Source: a virus. From it: a DNA stretch of 33,686 nt. The notes below the pieces were generated by a model. The model searched no databases and was not told the DNA's origin. It was given only the letters and a program-made list of their open reading frames with translations. The stretch lies in the IMG/VR virus record IMGVR_UViG_3300049914_000191, positions 1-33,686 of that record; one strand, 5' to 3'. Below are positions 4,931 through 30,420 of this stretch, one piece after another. The number at the start of each line of letters is the position of its first letter. Position 1 is the first letter of the stretch. A program made the position numbers and the translations under genes.

Positions 4931-6082
4931 ATGGCTAACACTTTAACTGGATTAATTCCAACCATCTATAAATCGCTGGATAATGTTTTGCGTGAACTGA
5001 CCGGGTTCGTCCCCTCAGTTATGCGCGATTCATCCGGCGAACAGGTGGCAAAAGATCAAACCATCGCCTGGCCTGTGGTACCTGCTTCCAGTGCAGGCAA
5101 TGTCACACCGGCAGTTTATGGCCCTACGCCGACCGATCAGACCATTCCTCCAATAACCATGACGATCAGCAAGAGCCGATCCGTGGTTTTTGGCTGGAAT
5201 GGTGAAGAGCAGAAAAGCCTGGGCGGGTTATTTAACCAGATCCTGGTGGACCAATTTTCCCAGGCAATGCGCACGCTGGTGAATGAGGTCGATGCTGACC
5301 TGGCGGCATTGTATATCTATGCAAGCCGGGCATACGGCACAGCCGGGACCACACCCTTCGACAGCACCAACAAGCTGAGCTTCCTGGCTCAACTGTATAA
5401 GATATTGGCGGATAACGGTGCTTCCCTGGGAGATCTGCAGCTTGTGCTCAATACAACAGCCGGAGCTGCGCTGCGCACTATGGTCGAGTTATGGCAAGCC
5501 AACACGGCGGGAAGTGATGATCTTCTGCGACGCGGCGTGCTGCTTGACCTGATGGGCTTTGCAGTGCATGAGAGCGCTCAGGTAAAGACCCATACCACCG
5601 GGGGATCGAGTGCGACTGCAGTCGATCTCACCGCCGGTTATGCGATTGGATCAACCACGATCCATGTGGATACGGTGACTGGGACCTGGTTGGCTGGTGA
5701 TGTCCTCAGCAACATTAAAACTGGACGTGACACCTCGAAATATGTCGTCGCGACTGGACTTGCATCTGCTGAAGGGGATCTGGTCCTGGCTAAGCCTGGG
5801 ATCCGGATCGCCTGGGCGAATAATGATCTTCTGACCCCCAGCGCCAGCTATGCAGCCAATATGGCATTCTCACGTTCGGCAATCGCATTGATGACCCGCG
5901 TGCCATTGATGCCGGATGGTGGAGATGCAGCCGAGGACGTGACCGTGATCACAGATCCGCAAAGTGGTCTCAGTTTCCAGGTGGCGATGTACCGCCAGTA
6001 CCGCCAAGTGGCCTTCGAAGTTGGGTTGGCCTGGGGCGTGAAGGCAGTGAAGTCAGAAGAGATTGCAATCCTGCTGGGATAA
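4931..6082 (+). CDS. Major capsid protein, P22-like coat family
   Basis: 383 aa, with AAGGAGAAAATAAC before ATG 4931. The N-terminus (MANTLTGLIPTIYKSLD) and the C-terminal segment (NMAFSRSAIALMTRVPLMP, then ITDPQSGLSFQVAMYRQYRQ) resemble the P22 coat protein family. Between about residues 215 and 305 a beta-rich, Gly/Thr-rich stretch corresponds to the insertion domain of that family. Hundreds of copies would form the icosahedral shell. P22-type coat with an HK97-type portal and a protease is a mosaic head module. Confidence 0.85.
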   Translation: MANTLTGLIPTIYKSLDNVLRELTGFVPSVMRDSSGEQVAKDQTIAWPVVPASSAGNVTPAVYGPTPTDQTIPPITMTISKSRSVVFGWNGEEQKSLGGLFNQILVDQFSQAMRTLVNEVDADLAALYIYASRAYGTAGTTPFDSTNKLSFLAQLYKILADNGASLGDLQLVLNTTAGAALRTMVELWQANTAGSDDLLRRGVLLDLMGFAVHESAQVKTHTTGGSSATAVDLTAGYAIGSTTIHVDTVTGTWLAGDVLSNIKTGRDTSKYVVATGLASAEGDLVLAKPGIRIAWANNDLLTPSASYAANMAFSRSAIALMTRVPLMPDGGDAAEDVTVITDPQSGLSFQVAMYRQYRQVAFEVGLAWGVKAVKSEEIAILLG

Positions 6083-6160: not shown

Positions 6161-6526
6161 ATGGCCGAGAAATTGGAATATGCTTTAATGAAAAAAGGCG
6201 ACGAAAAGGTCGCAGTCGATAAGTCCCTGATCAATGATCATGAACTCCTGGGATGGAACGTGGTTGGTATTTGCGAGGTCGATAGTGATGACGTCGTGAC
6301 TGAGACCGGCAAGGTGATCGGGACTCCAGCTCACACGATCGTGACGACCGATGGATTCCTCAAGGTGCTGCCGGTCCAGGTGGATAATCCAGCTCCAGTC
6401 GCTGCCGTTGGTCCGGTGATCAAGGTCGAGCCTGCGAAAGTCGTCAAAGTCGTCAAAATTGCCAAAGTAGTTAAGCCAGCTCCGAAAGTCGAGCTGGTGG
6501 TTAAGCCAGCTGATAAGCCGAAATAA
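6161..6526 (+). CDS. Small head-region protein with KVVK repeats
   Basis: 121 aa from ATG 6161 (GAGAGG at 6149-6154). The first 75 residues are a mixed alpha/beta module. The last about 45 are a Lys/Val/Pro-rich tail (VEPAKVVKVVKIAKVVKP) of repeated KVVK units, strongly basic. Genes right after the coat often encode decoration or head-stabilising proteins; the basic tail could touch DNA or the capsid surface. No family is recognised. Confidence 0.65.
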   Translation: MAEKLEYALMKKGDEKVAVDKSLINDHELLGWNVVGICEVDSDDVVTETGKVIGTPAHTIVTTDGFLKVLPVQVDNPAPVAAVGPVIKVEPAKVVKVVKIAKVVKPAPKVELVVKPADKPK

Positions 6527-6598: not shown

Positions 6599-6976
6599 AT
6601 GTCACGTATTATTTCGCATACGGTGAAAATAACGACAACGGGTACGGCGGGATCGGCAAGCGGGAATGCCATAGTACAGCCTCCAAATGATCCACTGGAG
6701 GGTTTTCTTCTGGATATCAAACTTGATTACCATGCTAGTTGTCCAGCCACGGCGGATGTGACTATTTCAGACCCGACATTTGGAAACCTGGTGGTCAAAT
6801 CCAATAATTCCACGGATGTGGTGATCTCACCACGTCAGGCCACGGTGGATAACGCAGCTGCAGCGACAGGACTTTATGACCTAATACCATTAAATGGACC
6901 GCTTAATATTGCGATCGCTCAAGCAGATGCGCTGACAGATTGCCTGGTGGTTACCATTCGCTGGCTCACGCCATGA
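6599..6976 (+). CDS. Putative head decoration protein
   Basis: 125 aa. ATG 6599 is preferred over ATG 6593 because GAAAGGG then has usable spacing. The protein is Thr/Ala/Gly-rich and predicted all-beta, with no charged helices. Its last 56 residues (VKSNNSTDVVISPRQATVDN onward) are closely copied in the chimeric gene at 8193-8468. Place after the coat gene and the beta-rich makeup suggest a capsid decoration or fibre protein; no named family is recognised. Confidence 0.6.
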   Translation: MSRIISHTVKITTTGTAGSASGNAIVQPPNDPLEGFLLDIKLDYHASCPATADVTISDPTFGNLVVKSNNSTDVVISPRQATVDNAAAATGLYDLIPLNGPLNIAIAQADALTDCLVVTIRWLTP

Positions 6977-7764
6977 TCATTCTCCAGCTTGCAGAAACAC
7001 AATTGGTAGATTTTGTGCTGAAGGATTCCGGAGGAATCGAAGTGCTGGGGTTGGGTTCGACTTTCAGCGTGGAGATCTCCAAAAATGGAGGGGCATTTGC
7101 AGCCGGGACCGGTACAAAGGCGGAGATCAGCGATGGCTGGTACACCTATTTGCTGGATGCAGCCGAGACCGATACGGAGGGGCCGCTGGCGGTGAAGGTG
7201 ACCGGGGCGGGAGCAGTACAAAAAAATCTGCTATATGAGGTATCAGGTTCCATTTGGACAGCGCCGGCAGGAGATTATATTCTGACTGCCACAGAAGCCT
7301 CCAATGTGCTGAGATGTGAGATCGATGACCCGACCATGCTGGCGCTGCTGCCCCAAATCGATGCAGAAATATTCCGTGCCACGGGAAGGAAATGGGAAGA
7401 TGATAGCGTGATCTGCCCAGAAGCCAAGAGCCCTGCGTCAGATCTGTTGTACTGCCTGCATGAGGGTGGATGGCCATCTGAAGGGCTCCGTCAGCACTAT
7501 CTAGCGGGATTAACCCGGCTGGAGGCGATAGCGCAATATTATTACACCTTCGAGGGGCTGGATGAATCCGGCTATATTCACATCCACCATATCCACGAAG
7601 GCGATACGGTGGTGAGAGTGACGGGAAGAGTGGGTGCCACCGGTGACCAGAGCGCCAAATTCGAGACAGTGATCAGCGTGGATCATTCGATCCAGCAGAT
7701 ATCCAGCGATGACCTGGATGATAAATGGTTCACGGCGTATATCGTGCCGCCAGAAGAAATTTGA
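6973..7764 (+). CDS. Head-tail connector (gp6-like) with N-terminal beta domain
   Basis: 263 aa from ATG 6973, overlapping the previous stop (ATGA). Residues about 1-90 look like a beta-sandwich (VDFVLKDSGGIEVLG, SDGWYTYLLDAAETDTEG). Residues about 95-200 resemble the helical gp6-like adaptor that plugs into the portal (LLPQIDAEIFRATGRKWEDD, LTRLEAIAQYYY). A third beta-rich C-terminal part (VVRVTGRVGATGDQSAKF) follows. The family is usually about 100 aa, so this is an enlarged multidomain version. Function in head completion is inferred from fold hints and gene order. Confidence 0.6.
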   Translation: MIILQLAETQLVDFVLKDSGGIEVLGLGSTFSVEISKNGGAFAAGTGTKAEISDGWYTYLLDAAETDTEGPLAVKVTGAGAVQKNLLYEVSGSIWTAPAGDYILTATEASNVLRCEIDDPTMLALLPQIDAEIFRATGRKWEDDSVICPEAKSPASDLLYCLHEGGWPSEGLRQHYLAGLTRLEAIAQYYYTFEGLDESGYIHIHHIHEGDTVVRVTGRVGATGDQSAKFETVISVDHSIQQISSDDLDDKWFTAYIVPPEEI

Positions 7765-7797: not shown

Positions 7798-8142
7798 ATG
7801 AAGATCGGGAATGCGATCACCAACCCAAGCGAGCTGAACCAGCGGGTAACGCTTAAGAGCCGCACGGTGAGCACCGGCACGGGTGGCTTCCAGGCGCCCA
7901 GCTACACCACGATCGCCGTGGTGTGGGCCAAGTGGGTGGGGGTGCATGGCAGTGAAGCCTGGGCAGCGAACGCGGTAAATGCCATGCTGGCGGCCACGGT
8001 GACGATTAGATATAGAAATGACATTGATCCAACATGTATTTTAGGGTTAGATGGTGAGAATTACGAAATTGTCAGTCCAGATGATATTCGGATGCGACAT
8101 GAATATATCGAGTTGAAAGTTAAACGAGTGGTGCCGGGATGA
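7798..8142 (+). CDS. Head-tail adaptor (head closure) protein
   Basis: 114 aa from ATG 7798; ATG 7792 is in frame but too close to AGAGGA at 7784-7789. The sequence has the head-tail joining pattern: an opening loop with NPSELNQRVTLKSR, then TGGFQAPSYTTIAVVWAKWVGVHGSE, then the TIRYRNDIDPTCIL strand and a terminal ELKVKRV strand. SPP1 gp16 / HK97 gp9 relatives seal the capsid after packaging and connect to the tail. Order after the gp6-like gene agrees. Confidence 0.75.
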   Translation: MKIGNAITNPSELNQRVTLKSRTVSTGTGGFQAPSYTTIAVVWAKWVGVHGSEAWAANAVNAMLAATVTIRYRNDIDPTCILGLDGENYEIVSPDDIRMRHEYIELKVKRVVPG

Positions 8143-8192
8143 ACTATACCATGCCTCGCCAGACAACACTACACTACATCAGGAGGTGATTG

Positions 8193-8300
8193 ATGCCAGT
8201 ACGATCTAAGCTTGAGACAAATGGGTTTTCTGAATACCTGGAGCGCCTGGTCCAGGCTGGTAAGGATATCGACTTGGTGGCGGATGAGACCCTGGCGGTC
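8193..8300 (+). repeat. Diverged direct repeat, copy 1 (5' part of gp10-like gene)
   Basis: About 108 bases aligned codon for codon with 10431-10538, including the identical run GAATACCTGGAGCGCCTGGT. The two copies bracket the cargo gene. Differences lie mostly at third codon positions, so the copies diverged under selection or came from related phages. Confidence 0.8.
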
Positions 8301-8468
8301 AAAAGCAATAATGCTACGGATATAGTGATCGCACCACGCCAGGCCACGGTGGATAACGCAGCTGTAGCGACAGGGCTTTATGACCTGTATCCATTAAATG
8401 CACCATTGACGATCAGCATAGCACAGGCAGATGCATTGACAGCATGCCTAGTGGCAACCATCCGTTGA
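8193..8468 (+). CDS. Chimeric gene: gp10-like start fused to decoration-protein end
   Basis: 91 aa from ATG 8193, with an excellent AGGAGGTGA upstream. Residues 1-36 match the gp10-like protein at 10431 (28 of 36 identical). Residues 36-91 match the end of the decoration protein at 6599-6976 (46 of 56 identical). The frame is open through the join, so a product is likely made, but neither parent domain is complete. It most probably arose by illegitimate recombination when the cargo gene at 8502 entered. It may be a remnant with no function. Confidence 0.75.
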   Translation: MPVRSKLETNGFSEYLERLVQAGKDIDLVADETLAVKSNNATDIVIAPRQATVDNAAVATGLYDLYPLNAPLTISIAQADALTACLVATIR

Positions 8469-8501
8469 TTGGAATTCGATACGATGAGGAGATAGAGAAC
8501 C

Positions 8502-10373
8502 ATGTTGCCGATATTAATTAGAAGTAAAGGAAAATGGCACTGTTTAATTGATTTTTCCATAATACCCGATGGTGCATTGCCGTCTATTTTCACGGGTTCG
8601 ACCTATACGATTGCAACTGGCAAGGCGGTAAACACTCCTACATTTGGTACTGACCTCGTTTCAAATGGTAATATGGAAGCGGGTAATCCTCCGACGGATT
8701 GGGGATCGAATGGTTCAATACTTTCTAGCCAAGCCGATGAGCGCACTGGTGGGAGTGGCACTAAAAGTATGCAGCTTGCAAATGACGGAGCCAATTATGG
8801 TATTGCTTATCAGACCTTTGCGATTGCGGCAGATACTTGGTATTATATTTCTGCCTGGTTGAGAAAAGTAACTGCCGAAGTTAAATTAAGATTGTATGCC
8901 GGCACCTGGCCACCAATCGGTTCGCACGTTACAACGACGGATTGGACGAATGTATTTGCAGTGAGGCGCGGAGAACCGAACAGCTCTATATATACCGAGA
9001 ACCAGGACAATACAAACGGGCATACTGCAAGGGCGGATGACATTTCGGTAAAACCAATTACGGCAGCAACATTATTTAGTACACGCAAGGTCTCAAATCT
9101 GGTCGGTAAAATAAAAGCTCCCTGGACAATCATAGCGGCGACTCAAGCAGGCGTAGTCGGTTGGCTTGATAGTCAATCTAATCCTTTGTATTTTATTATA
9201 GCTTACCATGATGGGACAAACGCTGTTTTGGAGAAATGTGTCAATGGTACATATACCACATTGATTAATCAGATTGCGACTTATGGCTCAACCAAAAAAG
9301 TTGAGATAAGGAAAGTAGCAGCTACTACATATCAATTGTGGTATGGGGATGTTCAAATTGCAGCCGACCAGACGATATCAGATGCAGGCATTATTAGTAA
9401 TCAATATTTCGGACTATTCTCGACATACAGCGGAAATGGATGCGGAGGGTTAGAAGTGCTCCCTTTTGATGGAACTGGCGCAAATCCCGCCAACTCCTAT
9501 AATCCTAATACGGCGAGTGCATCAAATGCAGTTGCTCCTCTAAACACGCCGACCAGTGACACCAGTGGTGAGGCAGCCCATCCAGATGTTTATGATGCGG
9601 GATTAGGGCATACTTGGAATGGATATCGTTATTGGATGGCGATGACACCATTTCCCAATGATTTACCGACTTACGAATTTCCTGAAATACTTGCCTCAAA
9701 TGATAATGTAACATGGGTTGTGCCCGCAGGATTAACTAATCCGATTGATACACAATCTGGTGCAGAATTTGCCGACCCCGACCTAATTATGGATGGAACT
9801 ACATTGTGGTGTATATATTATGGCGATTTAGGCGGAGGGGTAACAAATATATTGGCCAAATATTCATCTGATGGTGTTAACTGGAGTGCTCGGCAAACAT
9901 TAGTGACTGTTATTTATCCGGCAGGAGCATCTCCAGCCATCGTCAAATATGGTAGTGAATGGTTAATGTTTACGACTGGGGGTGGAACTACGAATGAGTT
10001 GATTCGCAGAACAGCAAGCACATTGGCGGGGCCGTGGAGCGCACCTGTCGTTTGCAGTGTTCCTACACCCAATAATCGCTATATTTGGCATCAAGATGTT
10101 ATCAATGTCGACGGTGTATTATATGGCTTTTTCAATATAAATGGTACTCATATGTATTTTGGGACAAGTGTAGATGGAGGGCTGCATTGGCGCATGTCCG
10201 ATAATCCGATATTGTCTCCTACTGGTGACGATGGCGATTGGGATGGCGGGCAAATATATCGTGGCTCTGCTGTCGCAACAGGAACTGGGTTCGATTTTTG
10301 GTATTCGGCTTGTACTACTCACGCAAGAGTTTGGCGGATTGGGTTTACCACGATTTCTAATATAGAGAGTTAA
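8502..10373 (+). CDS. Carbohydrate-binding / beta-propeller glycosidase-like protein
   Basis: 623 aa, AT-richer than its neighbours. Residues about 45-130 look like a CBM4/9-type sugar-binding sandwich (LVSNGNMEAGNPPTDWGSN, DTWYYISAWLRK). Residues about 190-330 look like a lectin-type beta module. Residues about 345-623 show repeats such as SDGVNWS, ASNDNVTWV and SVDGGLHWR, like GH43/GH32-type or sialidase-like five-bladed propellers. It may bind or trim host-surface glycans. It sits inside the head-tail connector genes, not with tail fibres, and is flanked by duplicated sequence, so it is probably acquired cargo. No catalytic residues can be assigned safely. Confidence 0.6.
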   Translation: MLPILIRSKGKWHCLIDFSIIPDGALPSIFTGSTYTIATGKAVNTPTFGTDLVSNGNMEAGNPPTDWGSNGSILSSQADERTGGSGTKSMQLANDGANYGIAYQTFAIAADTWYYISAWLRKVTAEVKLRLYAGTWPPIGSHVTTTDWTNVFAVRRGEPNSSIYTENQDNTNGHTARADDISVKPITAATLFSTRKVSNLVGKIKAPWTIIAATQAGVVGWLDSQSNPLYFIIAYHDGTNAVLEKCVNGTYTTLINQIATYGSTKKVEIRKVAATTYQLWYGDVQIAADQTISDAGIISNQYFGLFSTYSGNGCGGLEVLPFDGTGANPANSYNPNTASASNAVAPLNTPTSDTSGEAAHPDVYDAGLGHTWNGYRYWMAMTPFPNDLPTYEFPEILASNDNVTWVVPAGLTNPIDTQSGAEFADPDLIMDGTTLWCIYYGDLGGGVTNILAKYSSDGVNWSARQTLVTVIYPAGASPAIVKYGSEWLMFTTGGGTTNELIRRTASTLAGPWSAPVVCSVPTPNNRYIWHQDVINVDGVLYGFFNINGTHMYFGTSVDGGLHWRMSDNPILSPTGDDGDWDGGQIYRGSAVATGTGFDFWYSACTTHARVWRIGFTTISNIES

Positions 10374-10430
10374 TCGAGTAAATATTATCGGAGATCTATT
10401 ATGACATCTAATATCTATAAGGATTGAATA

Positions 10431-10538
10431 ATGCCAATCCGATATAGGCTGGAGACAAAGGGATTTAGCGAATACCTGGAGCGCCTGGTGCAGGCAGGAA
10501 AAGATGTCGATGTGGTGGCGGATGAAGCCCTGGCAGCC
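10431..10538 (+). repeat. Diverged direct repeat, copy 2 (native gp10-like 5' end)
   Basis: Counterpart of 8193-8300. This copy continues into a full-length gp10-like gene, so it is the probable original. Confidence 0.8.
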
Positions 10539-10832
10539 GGAGGGGATGTGTTATTGGATGGAATGCTGCGGAGAGTGCCAAGGAAGACAGGCAACCTGGC
10601 TAACCACCTGGAGCGGACCGAGCCGGAGAGGGATGGGAACTTCCATTCGGTTATGGTGGGTCTTTCCAGGACTGCAGATTCGAACACAGCCCGATATGGA
10701 GGTGCCCAGGAATTCGGGACCAGCAGCATGCCGGCGCATCCATATATCCGACCGGCAATCGACGAGGATATGCGCTCAGCACGAGCGGCAATGAAAGCAA
10801 TCTTTGAAAATTTCTTAGGTGGTAAATTGTGA
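10431..10832 (+). CDS. HK97 gp10-like head-tail protein
   Basis: 133 aa from ATG 10431. N-terminal helical part (GFSEYLERLVQAGKDVDVVAD), central VPRKTGNLANHL motif, and the family's C-terminal GGAQEFGTSSMPAHPYIRPAID segment are all present. These proteins join the tail to the connector. This is the intact copy; a partial copy of its 5' end starts at 8193. The stop overlaps the next gene's GTG. Confidence 0.85.
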   Translation: MPIRYRLETKGFSEYLERLVQAGKDVDVVADEALAAGGDVLLDGMLRRVPRKTGNLANHLERTEPERDGNFHSVMVGLSRTADSNTARYGGAQEFGTSSMPAHPYIRPAIDEDMRSARAAMKAIFENFLGGKL

Positions 10833-16741: not shown

Positions 16742-17817
16742 ACCATCAGACCGTGGTTTTTTGGAACCGGGATTTCAATAGCATACTAACCCCGCTACAA
16801 GTCAAATATAAAGTAAAAAACTATTCTCATTCCGTGATCGGCGGTCCAAAGCAAGCGGAGATCTCCGCGATTGGTACCGAGCTGGACCTATGGGAGCTGG
16901 CTGAATATATTCGCCGGCCGGTACAGATATTTTCCGACAAGGGAGATCCGGTCTGGTGGGGCTTTGTAGCTGAGATCAAGATTGACGTGGGTCTTTGGTC
17001 GGTAGGTGTCAATATTGACTCGATGGCAAATTATGTTGGAGTAATTTACGAGGATGATGCTGATGAGGGGTTGCCAAAAATAACAGCCTGGACGGAGGCA
17101 GCTGATTCAACGGCTGAATACGGCCGGCGTGAGATCTTATTCACCTCCAGCGGATCCAATGCCACGCATGCCCTGGCAGCCAGGGATAAGTTCCTGGCGG
17201 AGAAGAAATATCCGACCCCGGTAATTACTCCGCGTGAGAAAGGCGAGAACGGCGCTACTATTTATTGCCGGGGCTGGTTTGACACACTGGCATGGCGCTA
17301 TTATGCCAATGCCGGGGTGAATTTAGTGGATACGGCTACCCAGATCGCGGCCATGACAACCAGTTGCGGAGAGTTCGTTGCTGGAATTAATCTGGAGACT
17401 ACCAGTGGAATTTCAACAGCTGAAACCCGCGATGGACAAGGTAATGGTTTATATGAGATCACTGAGCTTTTGACGATGGGAACCAGCAATTACCGGCGGA
17501 TGCTGTGCGAGGTAACGATGGGCCGCCAGCTGCGGGTCTATGAAGAGCCTATACTGGCAAGCAATGCCAGTATGATCCTGAAAGATGGATCTCTGCGCGA
17601 TTTATATGATATGCCGTTGCGCAAGGAAACCTGCCCCGTGGGGATCTGGACGCGCTTAAAGGATATTGTTCCAGCATCGGTGGATACAACCAAACTTTCA
17701 GATCCCAACATCATGTTCATCGACGAGGCGGAGTATATCCCAGCTGAGGACCGGCTTAATCTTACACCGAGAGGGTTTATCGATCCATTCCAGATAGGGA
17801 GACCAAACGATGGCTGA
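16738..17817 (+). CDS. Tail hub / baseplate protein (Tal-like)
   Basis: 359 aa, ATG 16738 overlapping the Dit-like stop. Early residues (FNSILTPLQVKYKVKNYSHS, then IGGPKQAEISAIGTELDLWELAEYIRRPVQIFSDKGDPVWWGFV) match the pattern of tail proteins that define a local coordinate frame (gp27-like hub fold). Third in the order tape measure, Dit, hub. No peptidase motif is seen. It overlaps the fibre gene by eight bases. Confidence 0.65.
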   Translation: MNHQTVVFWNRDFNSILTPLQVKYKVKNYSHSVIGGPKQAEISAIGTELDLWELAEYIRRPVQIFSDKGDPVWWGFVAEIKIDVGLWSVGVNIDSMANYVGVIYEDDADEGLPKITAWTEAADSTAEYGRREILFTSSGSNATHALAARDKFLAEKKYPTPVITPREKGENGATIYCRGWFDTLAWRYYANAGVNLVDTATQIAAMTTSCGEFVAGINLETTSGISTAETRDGQGNGLYEITELLTMGTSNYRRMLCEVTMGRQLRVYEEPILASNASMILKDGSLRDLYDMPLRKETCPVGIWTRLKDIVPASVDTTKLSDPNIMFIDEAEYIPAEDRLNLTPRGFIDPFQIGRPNDG

Positions 17818-19318
17818 CGAGAACAACCTGACCACATTGGCTAAACGATTGAGACCACTAATGAAAATGGCGATCGTAAATATGGGAGGTGGTGATTGCT
17901 GTTTTGTATGTGATGGAGATAACACATATGGTGGAGATGGAGCTCTGGCACTTCACTCAACTGCCAAAGACTGTGTTGCTATTGGATTTAACGCACTGGC
18001 TTTTGATACACAGGGTAGCCAATGTGTTGCTGTTGGATCAGGAGCATTGGAAAATAACCTTATTGGATTAAATCATATCGCAGTCGGGTTTCAAGCTCTG
18101 CACGATTGTACCTTTTCTGCTTGGCCAGAATATGCCAATATTGCTATAGGGACAGAGGCAGGAGCACATATTACAACTGGTTATGCAGACATAGCAATTG
18201 GTACGTTTGCTCTACATGATGTCACTACTGCCAGAGGAAATATTGCGATCGGAGATGAATGCCTTGTATTAGTCACAGAACGAGATAACATAGGCATTGG
18301 TCTTGCGGCACTTTACCAGGCAGACAATACCTATAACAACATCGGCATAGGCACAGATGCTTTGTGGTCTTTCCTGCATGGTCCTAACAACAGCAAAACA
18401 GGAGAAAATATAGCCATCGGGTCCTGTGCGTTATTTGACCTAGCCTATGGTGATGAAAATATAGGAATTAGCAAACAATTCTCATTTTATTATGGTGAAT
18501 ACTGTGTATTCATTGGGATGGAAGCGGGTGACGGTACAGAATGCGGCTCATATAATATTGGAGTTGGAGCATTCGCTTGTACAGGTGCTGCCGGAGAGGG
18601 AAATACTAGCATAGGTGAAAATGCCTTATGGCTAAATACTTATGGTGTAGGGGGTAACTGGATAGATGAATTTTCTGACTATAGTGGAACAGTACCCGGA
18701 ACAGTGAAAGCGCACAACAGTGACCCCTGGGGATTTAGTCTTGCTCCTGGTGTTTACACAGACATGCGAATAATGGGAGCTTACCACTACAACGGAAATT
18801 ACACTATCACAGTAATTGATGCACAGAACTTCTACTTCACTCATGCTTGGGCTGGTGATGATTTCGCTGCTGGTTACTATATGGCACTACTGAACTATGC
18901 GCTTTACGCTAATAATGATACTGCTATTGGTTATATTGCCGGGGTTTGGAATGATAATAATTCAGAATGTACCTATATTGGATATGCCGCTGATGCGGAT
19001 GGTCTGGGAGTTTACGTCAACAGCACGGCTCTGGGAGCGAATTCGGTTATAACCAAAAGCAATCAAATGGTTATTGGTGATAGCAATATTGTCGAAAATC
19101 TATTCAACGGCAGCGTTCTTATTGGTACAGTTACCGATGGCATGACCGAAGGAGGTAGTTTAGCAATCGCACAGGACTTAGCACATCGAGGCACAAAGAT
19201 TGGTTTCTTCAATACTGTTCCAATCGTAAAAGAATTGAAAGCTAATCATAACAACTGGGCAAATATTTCAGATATTGTTGCTGTTCTGCTCGCTTATGGA
19301 TTAGTTGATTCAGCATAG
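17810..19318 (+). CDS. Tail fibre with YadA-like head repeats
   Basis: 502 aa, ATG 17810. Residues about 55-430 hold about a dozen units built on (N/D)IAIG-x-x-AL or similar (for example IAIGTEAGAHITTGYADIAI, NIGIGLAALYQADNTYNNIG). This is the left-handed beta-roll repeat of trimeric adhesin heads. Residues about 270-365 break the repeats and may form a separate knob, then repeats resume and end with a short helical C-terminus. It is the best candidate for receptor binding. AT-richer than upstream tail genes, suggesting exchange. Confidence 0.85.
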   Translation: MADENNLTTLAKRLRPLMKMAIVNMGGGDCCFVCDGDNTYGGDGALALHSTAKDCVAIGFNALAFDTQGSQCVAVGSGALENNLIGLNHIAVGFQALHDCTFSAWPEYANIAIGTEAGAHITTGYADIAIGTFALHDVTTARGNIAIGDECLVLVTERDNIGIGLAALYQADNTYNNIGIGTDALWSFLHGPNNSKTGENIAIGSCALFDLAYGDENIGISKQFSFYYGEYCVFIGMEAGDGTECGSYNIGVGAFACTGAAGEGNTSIGENALWLNTYGVGGNWIDEFSDYSGTVPGTVKAHNSDPWGFSLAPGVYTDMRIMGAYHYNGNYTITVIDAQNFYFTHAWAGDDFAAGYYMALLNYALYANNDTAIGYIAGVWNDNNSECTYIGYAADADGLGVYVNSTALGANSVITKSNQMVIGDSNIVENLFNGSVLIGTVTDGMTEGGSLAIAQDLAHRGTKIGFFNTVPIVKELKANHNNWANISDIVAVLLAYGLVDSA

Positions 19319-21861: not shown

Positions 21862-23547
21862 TTAGAAATCTAGTCGATTTTGAGTTCCATCAAGTTTTTT
21901 TACTTTTTGAGCTGCCAGAAAAGTACCGGTCTCTGGAGGCATTTGGACCACCGATCCGGCCAGGATATGCTCGATGGTTAGGACCTGGAGGCGAGGAAAT
22001 GATTTTTGCCAGAATTGGGATTGATAAAAACCGGCAGTAGAGGCAGCTGTGATCATATCCCGAGTTGGATTGTCGAGGGTGATCAATACACCGATCTCAG
22101 CATGCTCATTATTCAGGGTGCCGATGAGATCTCGGATCGTGCTGGCGTTGACATGGCCTGATTTGACCTGGACCAGGACACGTTTGAGCTCTTGTTTAGC
22201 TGAGTCAATATAGTTTATTGCTCCATCGATGCCTTTGTCACTACCTTTTTTACCACTACCGCCCAATTCGAAGCCACCCAGGGGTTTTGCACCAACCAGC
22301 GAGAGCGCCCACCATTGGAATTGATACCGGTCCCGTTGGGCCAGGTCACGAGCTGAGCCAAGATCCTTAGGTTTACCGATCACCTCAAACTGAATACCTG
22401 GAAACATGGCTTTCATGCGATTTTCAATAAGGTTTATCGAGAGGTAAGTGATATCGATACCGATCCATTGCCGCCCCAGCTTTTCAGCTGCAGCGATGGC
22501 TGTACCACATCCGCAGAACGGATCAAGGATAATATCACCAGGATTAGATGATGCAAGAATGATTCGCTCAAGAAGGGCTATTGGTTTTTGTGTTGGATAA
22601 CCGAGAAGTTCTGCGTTTGATCCACGAATCTGAGAAATGTCAGACCATACATCTCCCAAAACAGCGCCAGCTTGTTCATCCAAATATCGTTTACGCATAA
22701 TACGCCCATCTGGATTTGCTGGAAAGATCAGAAGTCCTTGATTATCAAGGTCGCACATTTTCTCATAAGATACAGCCCATCCATTTCTATGTGGTTTGTA
22801 TCCTTTGTAGTCATACATAAGATTTGGTCTTGGATTAGGGCTGCGCAGATCGCCGGCATTAAACCTTCTTGCTCCTTCTGGAATTTTCTGGGTTTCTCGC
22901 TCTTCTTTTGTCATCCGACGAGTTGTACCATCGGGGAATTCGAGATATAAATACCAATCACGAAGTGTCTGTTCCTGGAATCCACTATACTGCCTGTGAA
23001 AAGTCATGTTTCTTGTTTTGTTATAAAATAAAAGGCGATCGCTTATTGTACCGAATTGATGTTTCGCATCATTATGGGCATCTGAACGTTTCCAAGTAAT
23101 TTCATTTTTAAAATTTTCAAAACCGAAAATAGTATCTAAAACGATTTTCAAATAATGGCTTGCAGATGGATCACAATGTAGATATAAGCTACCGGTAGGT
23201 TTAAGGACCCGATGAAGCTCAACAAGGCGGGCAGCCATCATGACCAGGTAAGCCAGCATCTGATTCTCACCGATGATAGTACGCAGGGCTGCCAGTAGAT
23301 CATCCACAGTGCCAGGATTGGCCTGGAGGATGTCGAGGTAAGCTTGCTCAGCTGAAGGTCCCCAGTGCCAAGTGTCATCGAAAGCGGTGATCTGTGCATC
23401 GGATGATATACCGCTTTCATTCTTGAAAAGGACGTTATAAGACCTGGAAGAGTTGAAAGGCGGATCCAGATAGATCAGATCGACCGAATTGGCCGGCATG
23501 GAGCGCAGGATGGGAAGGTTATCGCCAAAATAAAGAGTATTAGTCAT
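21862..23547 (-). CDS. DNA methyltransferase fused to Mrr-like nuclease
   Basis: 561 aa. Residues about 1-385 form a beta-class amino-methyltransferase: catalytic DPPF at 28-31 near the N-terminus, SAM-binding DPFCGCGTA at 342-350 near the C-terminal side, and YPTQKP just before it. Residues about 415-530 resemble the Mrr/restriction-endonuclease-4 PD-(D/E)xK fold: GSDKGIDG (D441), then VLVQVKSG (Q460-x-K462), then IGVLIT. So one chain may both methylate and cut, or the nuclease part may have another role. In the lysogeny operon it would be expressed by the prophage and could block incoming phages. The recognition sequence cannot be read from the protein. Confidence 0.88.
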   Translation of the reverse strand: MTNTLYFGDNLPILRSMPANSVDLIYLDPPFNSSRSYNVLFKNESGISSDAQITAFDDTWHWGPSAEQAYLDILQANPGTVDDLLAALRTIIGENQMLAYLVMMAARLVELHRVLKPTGSLYLHCDPSASHYLKIVLDTIFGFENFKNEITWKRSDAHNDAKHQFGTISDRLLFYNKTRNMTFHRQYSGFQEQTLRDWYLYLEFPDGTTRRMTKEERETQKIPEGARRFNAGDLRSPNPRPNLMYDYKGYKPHRNGWAVSYEKMCDLDNQGLLIFPANPDGRIMRKRYLDEQAGAVLGDVWSDISQIRGSNAELLGYPTQKPIALLERIILASSNPGDIILDPFCGCGTAIAAAEKLGRQWIGIDITYLSINLIENRMKAMFPGIQFEVIGKPKDLGSARDLAQRDRYQFQWWALSLVGAKPLGGFELGGSGKKGSDKGIDGAINYIDSAKQELKRVLVQVKSGHVNASTIRDLIGTLNNEHAEIGVLITLDNPTRDMITAASTAGFYQSQFWQKSFPRLQVLTIEHILAGSVVQMPPETGTFLAAQKVKKLDGTQNRLDF

Positions 23548-29092: not shown

Positions 29093-29641
29093 ATGAACTT
29101 CATACCCGAGCAACCAAGGGATAGCCAATTGGTGCCATTTTTCGATGATGTCACCAAGGAGGCTGGCTGGCAGGGACAATCGACGACTAAATCCATCAAA
29201 ACGCTGCAGGCGGAGATCATCGAGGCGATCAGCCGGCTTGGTGGTTTGGTGATCAACTTCCAGCGTGGCTCATTCCAGAGTGAAATTGGCAACCGGGATG
29301 GATTTCGGGTCCATTATGTGGTCCAGGCCGCAGATGGACGCCAGGTGGGTGGCAGGATCGATATTGCAGCCCTGCCTATTAAAATGGATTGGGCATTACG
29401 CCGATCGGAAGATAAGCGAAAGGATCAATCCCTAAAAATGGCGCTGTATATGCTCCGTCAGGCTTTAGACGGAACCTGGTTCTTGCAGCAGCTCAGCCCG
29501 GGGTATTCGGCATTGGTTCCGTTCATGCTGGGTCAGGGAGATAAAACTGTCTCGCAGATGTGGTCGGAGAGCTCGATCATGAATAATTTATTACCACCGG
29601 GGCAGGAAGAGTTTGTAGAGGGGGAGGCTAGGGAGGTATGA
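29093..29641 (+). CDS. Early protein, unknown (182 aa)
   Basis: The central part (AEIIEAISRLGGLVINFQRG, VHYVVQAADGRQVGGRIDIA, ALPIKM, then the helical SLKMALYMLRQALDGTWFLQ) looks like a compact alpha/beta enzyme or nucleic acid-binding fold, but no catalytic motif is certain. It overlaps the next gene by four bases (ATGA), so they are translationally coupled. Confidence 0.65.
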   Translation: MNFIPEQPRDSQLVPFFDDVTKEAGWQGQSTTKSIKTLQAEIIEAISRLGGLVINFQRGSFQSEIGNRDGFRVHYVVQAADGRQVGGRIDIAALPIKMDWALRRSEDKRKDQSLKMALYMLRQALDGTWFLQQLSPGYSALVPFMLGQGDKTVSQMWSESSIMNNLLPPGQEEFVEGEAREV

Positions 29642-30420
29642 GCAAAACTAAGATAGATTGGGCTGATAAGGTATGGAACCCGGTCACCGGCTGCACGAAG
29701 GTGAGTTCCGGTTGCAAGAATTGCTATGCAGAACGGGTAGCGAAACGCTTTTGGCGTGATGGAATAATCGGGGATAATTACCGACCATTCAGCGAAGTGC
29801 GTTGCCACACCGAGCGCCTGGAGCAGCCGCTGCACTGGAATAAGCCGGCCAGGATCTTCGTCGACAGTATGGGGGATTTGTTTCATAAGGATGTGCCCAA
29901 TACATTCATCAGCCAGGTCTTTTGGATCATGGAGATGGCGCCGATGCATACTTTCATGATTTTGACCAAAAGACCCAAGCGCATGCTGGAATGGGTGAAT
30001 CAAGATTATCAAAATCCATTGCCGAATGTGTGGCTGGGGGTCTCAGCTGAGGATCAAAAGACGGCGGATGAGAAGATCCCGATATTATTGGAGATGCCGG
30101 CGGTAGTGAGGTTCGTAAGCGTAGAGCCGATGCTGGGAAAGATAGACATCTGGCAATATCTCGGTGGCAACAGAAATCCAATTGGTGAAATATTCAATAA
30201 TAAAGGTCTCGATTGGATTATCTGTGGCTGTGAGAGTGGTCCGGGCGCCAGGCCGATGAAGATGAGTTGGGCAGCCGACTTGAAGCACCAATGCGTATTT
30301 GCCAGTGTGCCGTTCTTTTTCAAGCAGGCAATGATCGAGGGGAAACTGGTCAAAATGCCCAAATTAGATGGCAAAATATGGGATGAAATGCCAGGGATAA
30401 TTGCAGTAAAACAAGCATAA
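29638..30420 (+). CDS. DUF5131 (Gp37/Gp68-like) Fe-S protein
   Basis: 260 aa. KIDWADKVWNPVTGC, then C19-x6-C26-x2-C29 (GCTKVSSGCKNCYAE) marks the phage Gp37/Gp68 family, thought to be related to radical SAM enzymes. Also seen: DSMGDLFH, LTKRPKRM, VWLGVSAEDQ, VSVEPMLG and ICGCESGPGARPM, in family order and complete. Substrate unknown; often in phage early regions. Confidence 0.9.
   Translation: MSKTKIDWADKVWNPVTGCTKVSSGCKNCYAERVAKRFWRDGIIGDNYRPFSEVRCHTERLEQPLHWNKPARIFVDSMGDLFHKDVPNTFISQVFWIMEMAPMHTFMILTKRPKRMLEWVNQDYQNPLPNVWLGVSAEDQKTADEKIPILLEMPAVVRFVSVEPMLGKIDIWQYLGGNRNPIGEIFNNKGLDWIICGCESGPGARPMKMSWAADLKHQCVFASVPFFFKQAMIEGKLVKMPKLDGKIWDEMPGIIAVKQA

Follow-up and report, generated by a model that had tools for sequence, protein, structure and literature searches.

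How did a 623-aa gene with a propeller domain come to lie inside the head–tail connector operon of a phage, between two genes that adjoin each other in most relatives? The phage has no isolate and is known from a virus record of metagenomic origin, the whole stretch of which (33,686 bases, hereafter the window) was analyzed. It is a temperate siphophage with an integrase and a P22-coat-like head module. In Chloroflexota, related capsid genes were recognized in prophages of 9 of 147 genomes of one family as compared with 1 of 400 genomes drawn phylum-wide, which points to this phylum as the probable source of the host. No match to the decoration-type gene described below (deco) was obtained in the 147 genomes of that family, in a search run without positive control, and neither deco nor the gp10-like gene had a match among GenBank phages.

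Gene organization of the head–tail region

The features needed for the following discussion are listed here along the plus strand.

4931-6082 (+), major head protein (P22-coat-like family, PHROG 283)
6161-6526 (+), small gene of the post-capsid slot, function not assigned, with a weak relative in locus L058
6593-6976 (+), deco, intact resident gene for a decoration-type protein, confidently modelled as a jelly roll (pLDDT 93.9); its stop overlaps the next start
6973-7764 (+), head-tail connector gene after the capsid slot (conn), named from its position and conservation among relatives
7798-8142 (+), head closure protein (HCP, Hc1)
8193-8468 (+), chimeric gene, 91 aa, in which the first 35 gp10 codons are in frame with the last 58 deco codons
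8193-8297 (+), gp10' fragment, 81% nucleotide identity to 10431-10535
8291-8467 (+), deco' fragment, 79% nucleotide identity to 6787-6963; the joint CCTGG is in common
8502-10373 (+), cargo gene, 623 aa
8502-8531 (+), codons for the cargo N-terminal peptide MLPILIRSKG, common to genes after a full-length deco elsewhere
9513-10370 (+), residues 338-623 of the cargo, forming a five-bladed propeller domain with homology to the F. plautii GalNAc deacetylase
10431-10832 (+), intact gp10-like tail completion/Neck1 gene, 133 aa (Pfam HK97-gp10_like; PHROG tail completion/Neck1)

The gene order is thus HCP, chimera, cargo and intact gp10.

A chimeric gene ahead of the cargo

The sequence-only reading had described the cargo as bracketed by duplicated gp10-like starts. 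Two direct repeats are indeed found, the first one pairing 8187-8296 with 10425-10534 (110 nt, 81%), but the left copy is limited to the first 35 codons of gp10, whereas the right one belongs to the working gene. The second repeat pairs 6787-6963 with 8291-8467 (177 nt, 79%) and bears out the further claim that the 3' end of the decoration gene had been copied before the cargo. Codon-shuffled copies of the same query were used as controls: gp10' matches gp10 at 85 of 105 nucleotides (46/105 for the best control), and deco' matches deco (6788-6961) at 137 of 174 (74/174 for the best control).

At the fusion joint, codon 35 of gp10 is joined to codon 66 of deco with the reading frame kept, and the CCTGG carried there is found in both parents. 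The chimera stops at a TGA where deco has TGG, so that the conserved C-terminal WLTP is lost. According to the predicted fold, the break at deco residue 66 of 127 would fall within a strand of the jelly roll, leaving the chimera with about half of the sandwich. With half a jelly roll and no WLTP, this 91-aa gene most probably represents a scar.

The two duplicated pairs show similar dS values (0.63 and 0.57; dN 0.12 and 0.16), and within each pair the two members are more alike than either is to any relative found. Since gp10' and gp10 are equally far from the relatives, comparison does not distinguish the resident copy; deco' is no more distant from outgroup decos than the intact deco. A very short open frame of eight codons ahead of gp10 (10401-10427) could be the remnant of another gene.

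The HCP–gp10 slot in related phages

All fetched loci were scanned with profile models of HCP and gp10, which gave 78 distinct loci for comparison. The gap between the two genes is at most 105 nt in 72 of these, which upholds the initial description of this place as almost always compact, and it measures 264 and 339 nt in two others. Long inserts are present in three loci only, namely the window, L020 and L152, and all three differ from each other. The L020 insert comprises a small gene (123 aa) and two further ones of 474 and 105 aa, with no truncated gp10 copy and no other repeat found in the gap, and that of L152 contains glycosyltransferase-like genes; the slot has been used independently in these two loci.

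Empty sites, which the same reading had proposed to search for, were observed in L019 and L021, the closest gp10 relatives without insert, as well as in most other relatives, with HCP directly adjoining gp10. The same compact order is found in the Chloroflexota prophages L203, L214 and L216. The opposite picture, with all relatives holding the cargo in this place and no chimeric gene, was looked for and is not what these loci display. The cargo thus lies between genes that are adjacent in relatives, as is known for phage morons. Neither the window chimera nor the same cargo in the HCP–gp10 slot was found among the relatives; it is therefore the donor arrangement, rather than the donor of this exact cargo, that can be seen elsewhere.

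The usual place for cargoes is the capsid–connector slot, which extends over 2.3-6.8 kb in 6 of 36 distinct loci, typically with one small and one large gene. The small gene in the HCP–gp10 gap of L020 resembles, by eye, the small genes in the capsid slots of L034 and L050, so that pairs of a small gene and a cargo appear to use both slots.

Two further observations were made during this survey. In one of the 78 loci, L170 (1195-3479), the connector operon is rearranged: gp10 has been relocated behind the major tail and chaperone-like genes, and the tail terminator comes directly after HCP. Glycosyltransferase-like and methyltransferase-like genes lie amid head genes in L020 (311-2418), L152 (303-4520) and the post-capsid region of L023/L024, which are the slots also used by the sugar-active cargoes.

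The decoration gene and its partners elsewhere

The intact deco overlaps the following start (ATGA), and the resident slot therefore shows no trace of a lost cargo. The best matches of the deco model in fold searches are the phage cement proteins KHP40 (Z 8.7, rmsd 3.1) and KHP30 (Z 8.6), with a background near 8. A head role is supported by its position after the capsid gene, and this position, together with a jelly-roll match that lies near the background of the fold search, suggests that deco may act as a decoration protein. Tandem pairs of a full-length decoration-type gene were observed in L239 (5394-6145), L242 (2403-3154) and L247 (2334-3085), the first copy being more diverged from the family profile.

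Relatives of deco were fetched by sequence search. The donor arrangement that the sequence-only reading had anticipated, a decoration gene directly before the cargo, could be recovered in six distinct phages (L103, L102, L109, L110, L111/L112 and L113): a full-length deco is followed, mostly less than 100 nt downstream, by a large gene with a cargo-like start. The cargo N-terminus in the window, MLPILIRSKG, is matched by MLPILTRSKG in L103, MLPILLHNRG in L109, MYPIILRSRS in L113, MQPLLIHSKA in L111, MSLFPTILRS in L102 and MLTNYLIRPRG in L110, from which a consensus M-x-P-I-L-x-R-S-K-G can be derived. Compared pairwise, the seven N-termini reach a mean score of 29.1, as opposed to 12.7 (sd 1.0) for random gene-start sets, none of 5000 scoring as high, and with 14.7 for shuffled copies of the same seven. 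In L103, the similarity of the gene start to that of the window cargo is also seen at the DNA level.

The cargoes of the sister cassettes carry a polysaccharide deacetylase (L113), a LamG module with a GDSL acylhydrolase (L111) and a calcineurin-like phosphoesterase (L110), domains that fit a polysaccharide-modifying role. L102 has a fused protease/major-head gene, as recognized with PHROGs, and its head module thus differs from that of the window. An upstream gene of the same kind was identified by sequence likeness in L103, L110, L111 and L113, and the head module is unlike that of the window in at least five of the six distinct phages.

A second, diverged deco 3' end of 49 aa is present in L109 between the full deco and the cargo, 2 nt before the latter. 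Among the deco-family loci examined, truncated deco copies occur only in the window and L109, each time directly upstream of a cargo with the shared N-terminus, and the L109 remnant breaks deco at another point than the window chimera. It provides independent support for the 3' end of deco plus cargo as a travelling unit. The initial proposal that both had moved together is also supported by the donor arrangement, the empty site and the chimera.

Another situation was noticed in L226 (8001-8366 and beyond), where a 609-aa gene starts 2 nt after deco. Its N-terminus is of a different, glycine-rich type (MGAIWLSLGMGIGGG) and somewhat resembles the start of the L056 cargo (MPLTPKLKLLLLAGMAIGG). 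This glycine-rich type is perhaps a second kind of plug, in the sense discussed below.

Structure and relatives of the cargo protein

The cargo had been singled out as AT-rich, and its GC content (44%, GC3 36%) is indeed lower than that of its neighbors (53-55%), but composition alone is no sign of foreignness, since the phage's own tail-fibre-like gene (17810-19318, 43% GC) is as AT-rich; a foreign origin deduced from AT content alone was thus rejected.

The AlphaFold2 model, built with 19 sequences, is confident for residues 338-623 (pLDDT mostly >90), the rest being poorly modelled, with no confident model for the N-terminal half (residues 14-330). The modelled domain has the same propeller fold as the F. 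plautii N-acetylgalactosamine deacetylase (6n1a), with Z 37.5, rmsd 1.7 and 30% identity over 281 residues, and a profile E-value of 1.9e-47; the next fold family, GH43/GH130-type propellers, reaches Z values of at most 26. The active site of this enzyme reportedly consists of E64, H97, D100 and H252, in the numbering of the 2019 enzyme paper; these positions correspond to E, H, D and H in the 6n1a chain at a constant offset of 20. Three of them are kept at matching places in the cargo, as E392, D425 and H530 (for E64, D100 and H252, respectively). The second active-site His, H97, is replaced by Glu422 in the cargo and mostly by Tyr in phage relatives. The cargo also differs from the F. plautii enzyme in being phage-carried and in its other accessory domains. 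The search for a propeller active site, suggested from the outset, thus gave a mixed answer, the fold being that of a GalNAc deacetylase and one catalytic residue being missing. The cargo is not classified here as a deacetylase, and its modelled propeller may be a sugar binder, an altered esterase or inactive.

The propeller has relatives in L028, in the slot after the capsid gene, and among phage genes that are annotated as minor tail proteins. No relatives of the N-terminal half were detected by tblastn in viral contigs; only L056 shares it, with a relative of this half or its domains in the post-capsid slot. The cargo region contains 11 promoter-like sites, as compared with 6.8 ± 2.6 by chance, the promoter type of the host being possibly different, and no terminator-like site was found after the cargo.

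Possible origin of the arrangement

The explanation favored here, with moderate confidence, is that a cargo cassette linked to a decoration gene entered the window phage by recombination inside deco, the chimera being the scar of this event and the cargo being probably displayed on the virion through the resident deco. Elsewhere, a small jelly-roll deco stands directly before a large exchangeable carbohydrate-active gene with the M-x-P-I-L-x-R-S-K-G start. If gp10 in one genome and deco in a second one crossed over at their common CCTGG, the product would be the gp10-5'::deco-3' fusion followed by the sequence lying behind deco in the second genome; the 3' end of deco and the cargo would thus be brought in, and an intact gp10 left behind the cargo. 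The parents could have been related phages differing by about 20% in their DNA, or else a single genome present in two copies. Two parents at such a distance would account for the similar dS of both pairs and for their members being mutually closest. The second genome would have had a deco–cargo pair ahead of gp10, in the place where L020 has a cassette, or conn and HCP would have been lost later. Transfer in this direction, into the window phage, is presumed.

The cargo is probably a virion-surface protein that would bind polysaccharide near the host cell, deacetylate it, or both. Attachment would involve its N-terminal peptide and the resident deco, which is undamaged, shares about 80% identity with the half that came in and could thus serve as its partner. 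Such a partnership would make the loss of a second deco tolerable.

A tandem duplication within the lineage is a less likely alternative. Unequal crossover would have doubled the block running from the 3' part of deco to the 5' part of gp10, the second conn–HCP segment being lost and the cargo gained or kept. The gp10-5'::deco-3' fusion is exactly the joint expected from such an event, and both copies are equally diverged. Extra precise losses are however needed, not only of the second conn and HCP but also of the cargo after the first deco, where the ATGA overlap is kept. A functionless half domain should moreover drift, whereas the distance of deco' to outgroup decos does not exceed that of its intact counterpart.

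A more speculative and rather doubtful view generalizes the docking idea: the jelly-roll deco would be a socket and the peptide M-x-P-I-L-x-R-S-K-G a plug on exchangeable polysaccharide-modifying enzymes, swaps would take place inside the socket gene, and the window chimera may re-route the enzyme to the neck. That the chimera is a working adaptor, with its gp10 N-terminus docked at the neck and its deco half holding the cargo peptide, so that the cargo would have moved from capsid to neck, is by itself improbable. The strand-internal break and the missing WLTP argue against it, although the open frame is kept, a good ribosome-binding sequence (AGGAGGTG) precedes the chimera, and its position directly ahead of the cargo is that of the small partner genes in other cassettes. 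The low dN/dS of both halves would agree with such a function but may predate the fusion.

An ancestral cargo in the HCP–gp10 slot, lost by the relatives, is strongly disfavored: L020 also has a small-gene and cargo pair in this gap, but its genes are unrelated to those of the window, the two flanking genes are adjacent in most relatives, including distant ones and the Chloroflexota prophages, and the fused gp10 fragment is the mark of an insertion. An assembly artefact joining two phages is conceivable for a metagenome-derived sequence with no isolate, but highly improbable here, the roughly 5 nt in common at the joint offering too little overlap for assembly across it, the fusion being in frame and an independent deco remnant accompanying a cargo in L109.

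Comparison with known systems

Illegitimate recombination and morons are part of the mosaicism of tailed phages, and such recombination in mycobacteriophages is reportedly discussed in PMC3029335. Under the favored explanation of a cassette acquired through deco, the type of event, mosaic exchange with gain of a cargo, is already known. The window shares with these cases an extra gene between structural genes adjacent in relatives, a short-homology joint and a differing base composition. It differs from them by a fused fragment of two named structural genes, which records the co-travelling neighbor, and perhaps by a cargo without promoter or terminator of its own beyond chance.

In 936 lactococcal phages, carbohydrate-binding decorations are found on the neck passage structure, MTP and Dit (PMC6669499). 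Sugar-binding modules are likewise optional and exchangeable virion decorations there, including at the neck (PMC6669499), but they are domains of a neck or tail protein, whereas in the window the deacetylase-like domain belongs to a gene of its own, with a small jelly-roll gene as its partner. Among capsid decorations, Hoc of T4 and gp12 of SPP1 bind host surface sugars (PMC7602432). The deco–cargo pair of the window would be similar to these capsid-added proteins in aiding cell binding via sugars. In contrast, its anchor and sugar-active part lie in two genes, and the N-terminal peptide conserved in deco-following genes is the presumed plug.

A search of an open-access library gave no description of a cassette of this type, in which two genes go with a common N-terminal peptide and exchange occurs through breaks within deco. 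The window catches modular exchange in the act, with a two-gene fusion scar that names the neighbor which travelled with the cargo. L109 adds a second, independent scar, and intact donor arrangements are provided by phages with a different type of head. Should the common N-terminal peptide act as a docking signal, it would provide a simple and testable rule for mounting exchangeable sugar enzymes on virions, as well as a sequence tag for finding such enzymes in metagenomes.

Other genes of the window

Several other genes of the window deserve mention. On the minus strand (21862-23547), a 561-aa product combines an N6/N4 DNA methylase domain with a downstream Mrr-like/NA-iREase domain; this could be a phage-borne one-chain protein for restriction-modification or defence. 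A protein with an MptE-like domain (1239-1811) is encoded between terminase and portal and is kept in most relatives with the P22-coat-like module, and a DUF5131 protein (E 2.4e-84) is found at 29638-30420. The fibre-like gene at 17810-19318 encodes 502 aa with short repeats of the VAVGSGAL/IAIGTEAL type, and its product matches tail spike and virion structural PHROGs.
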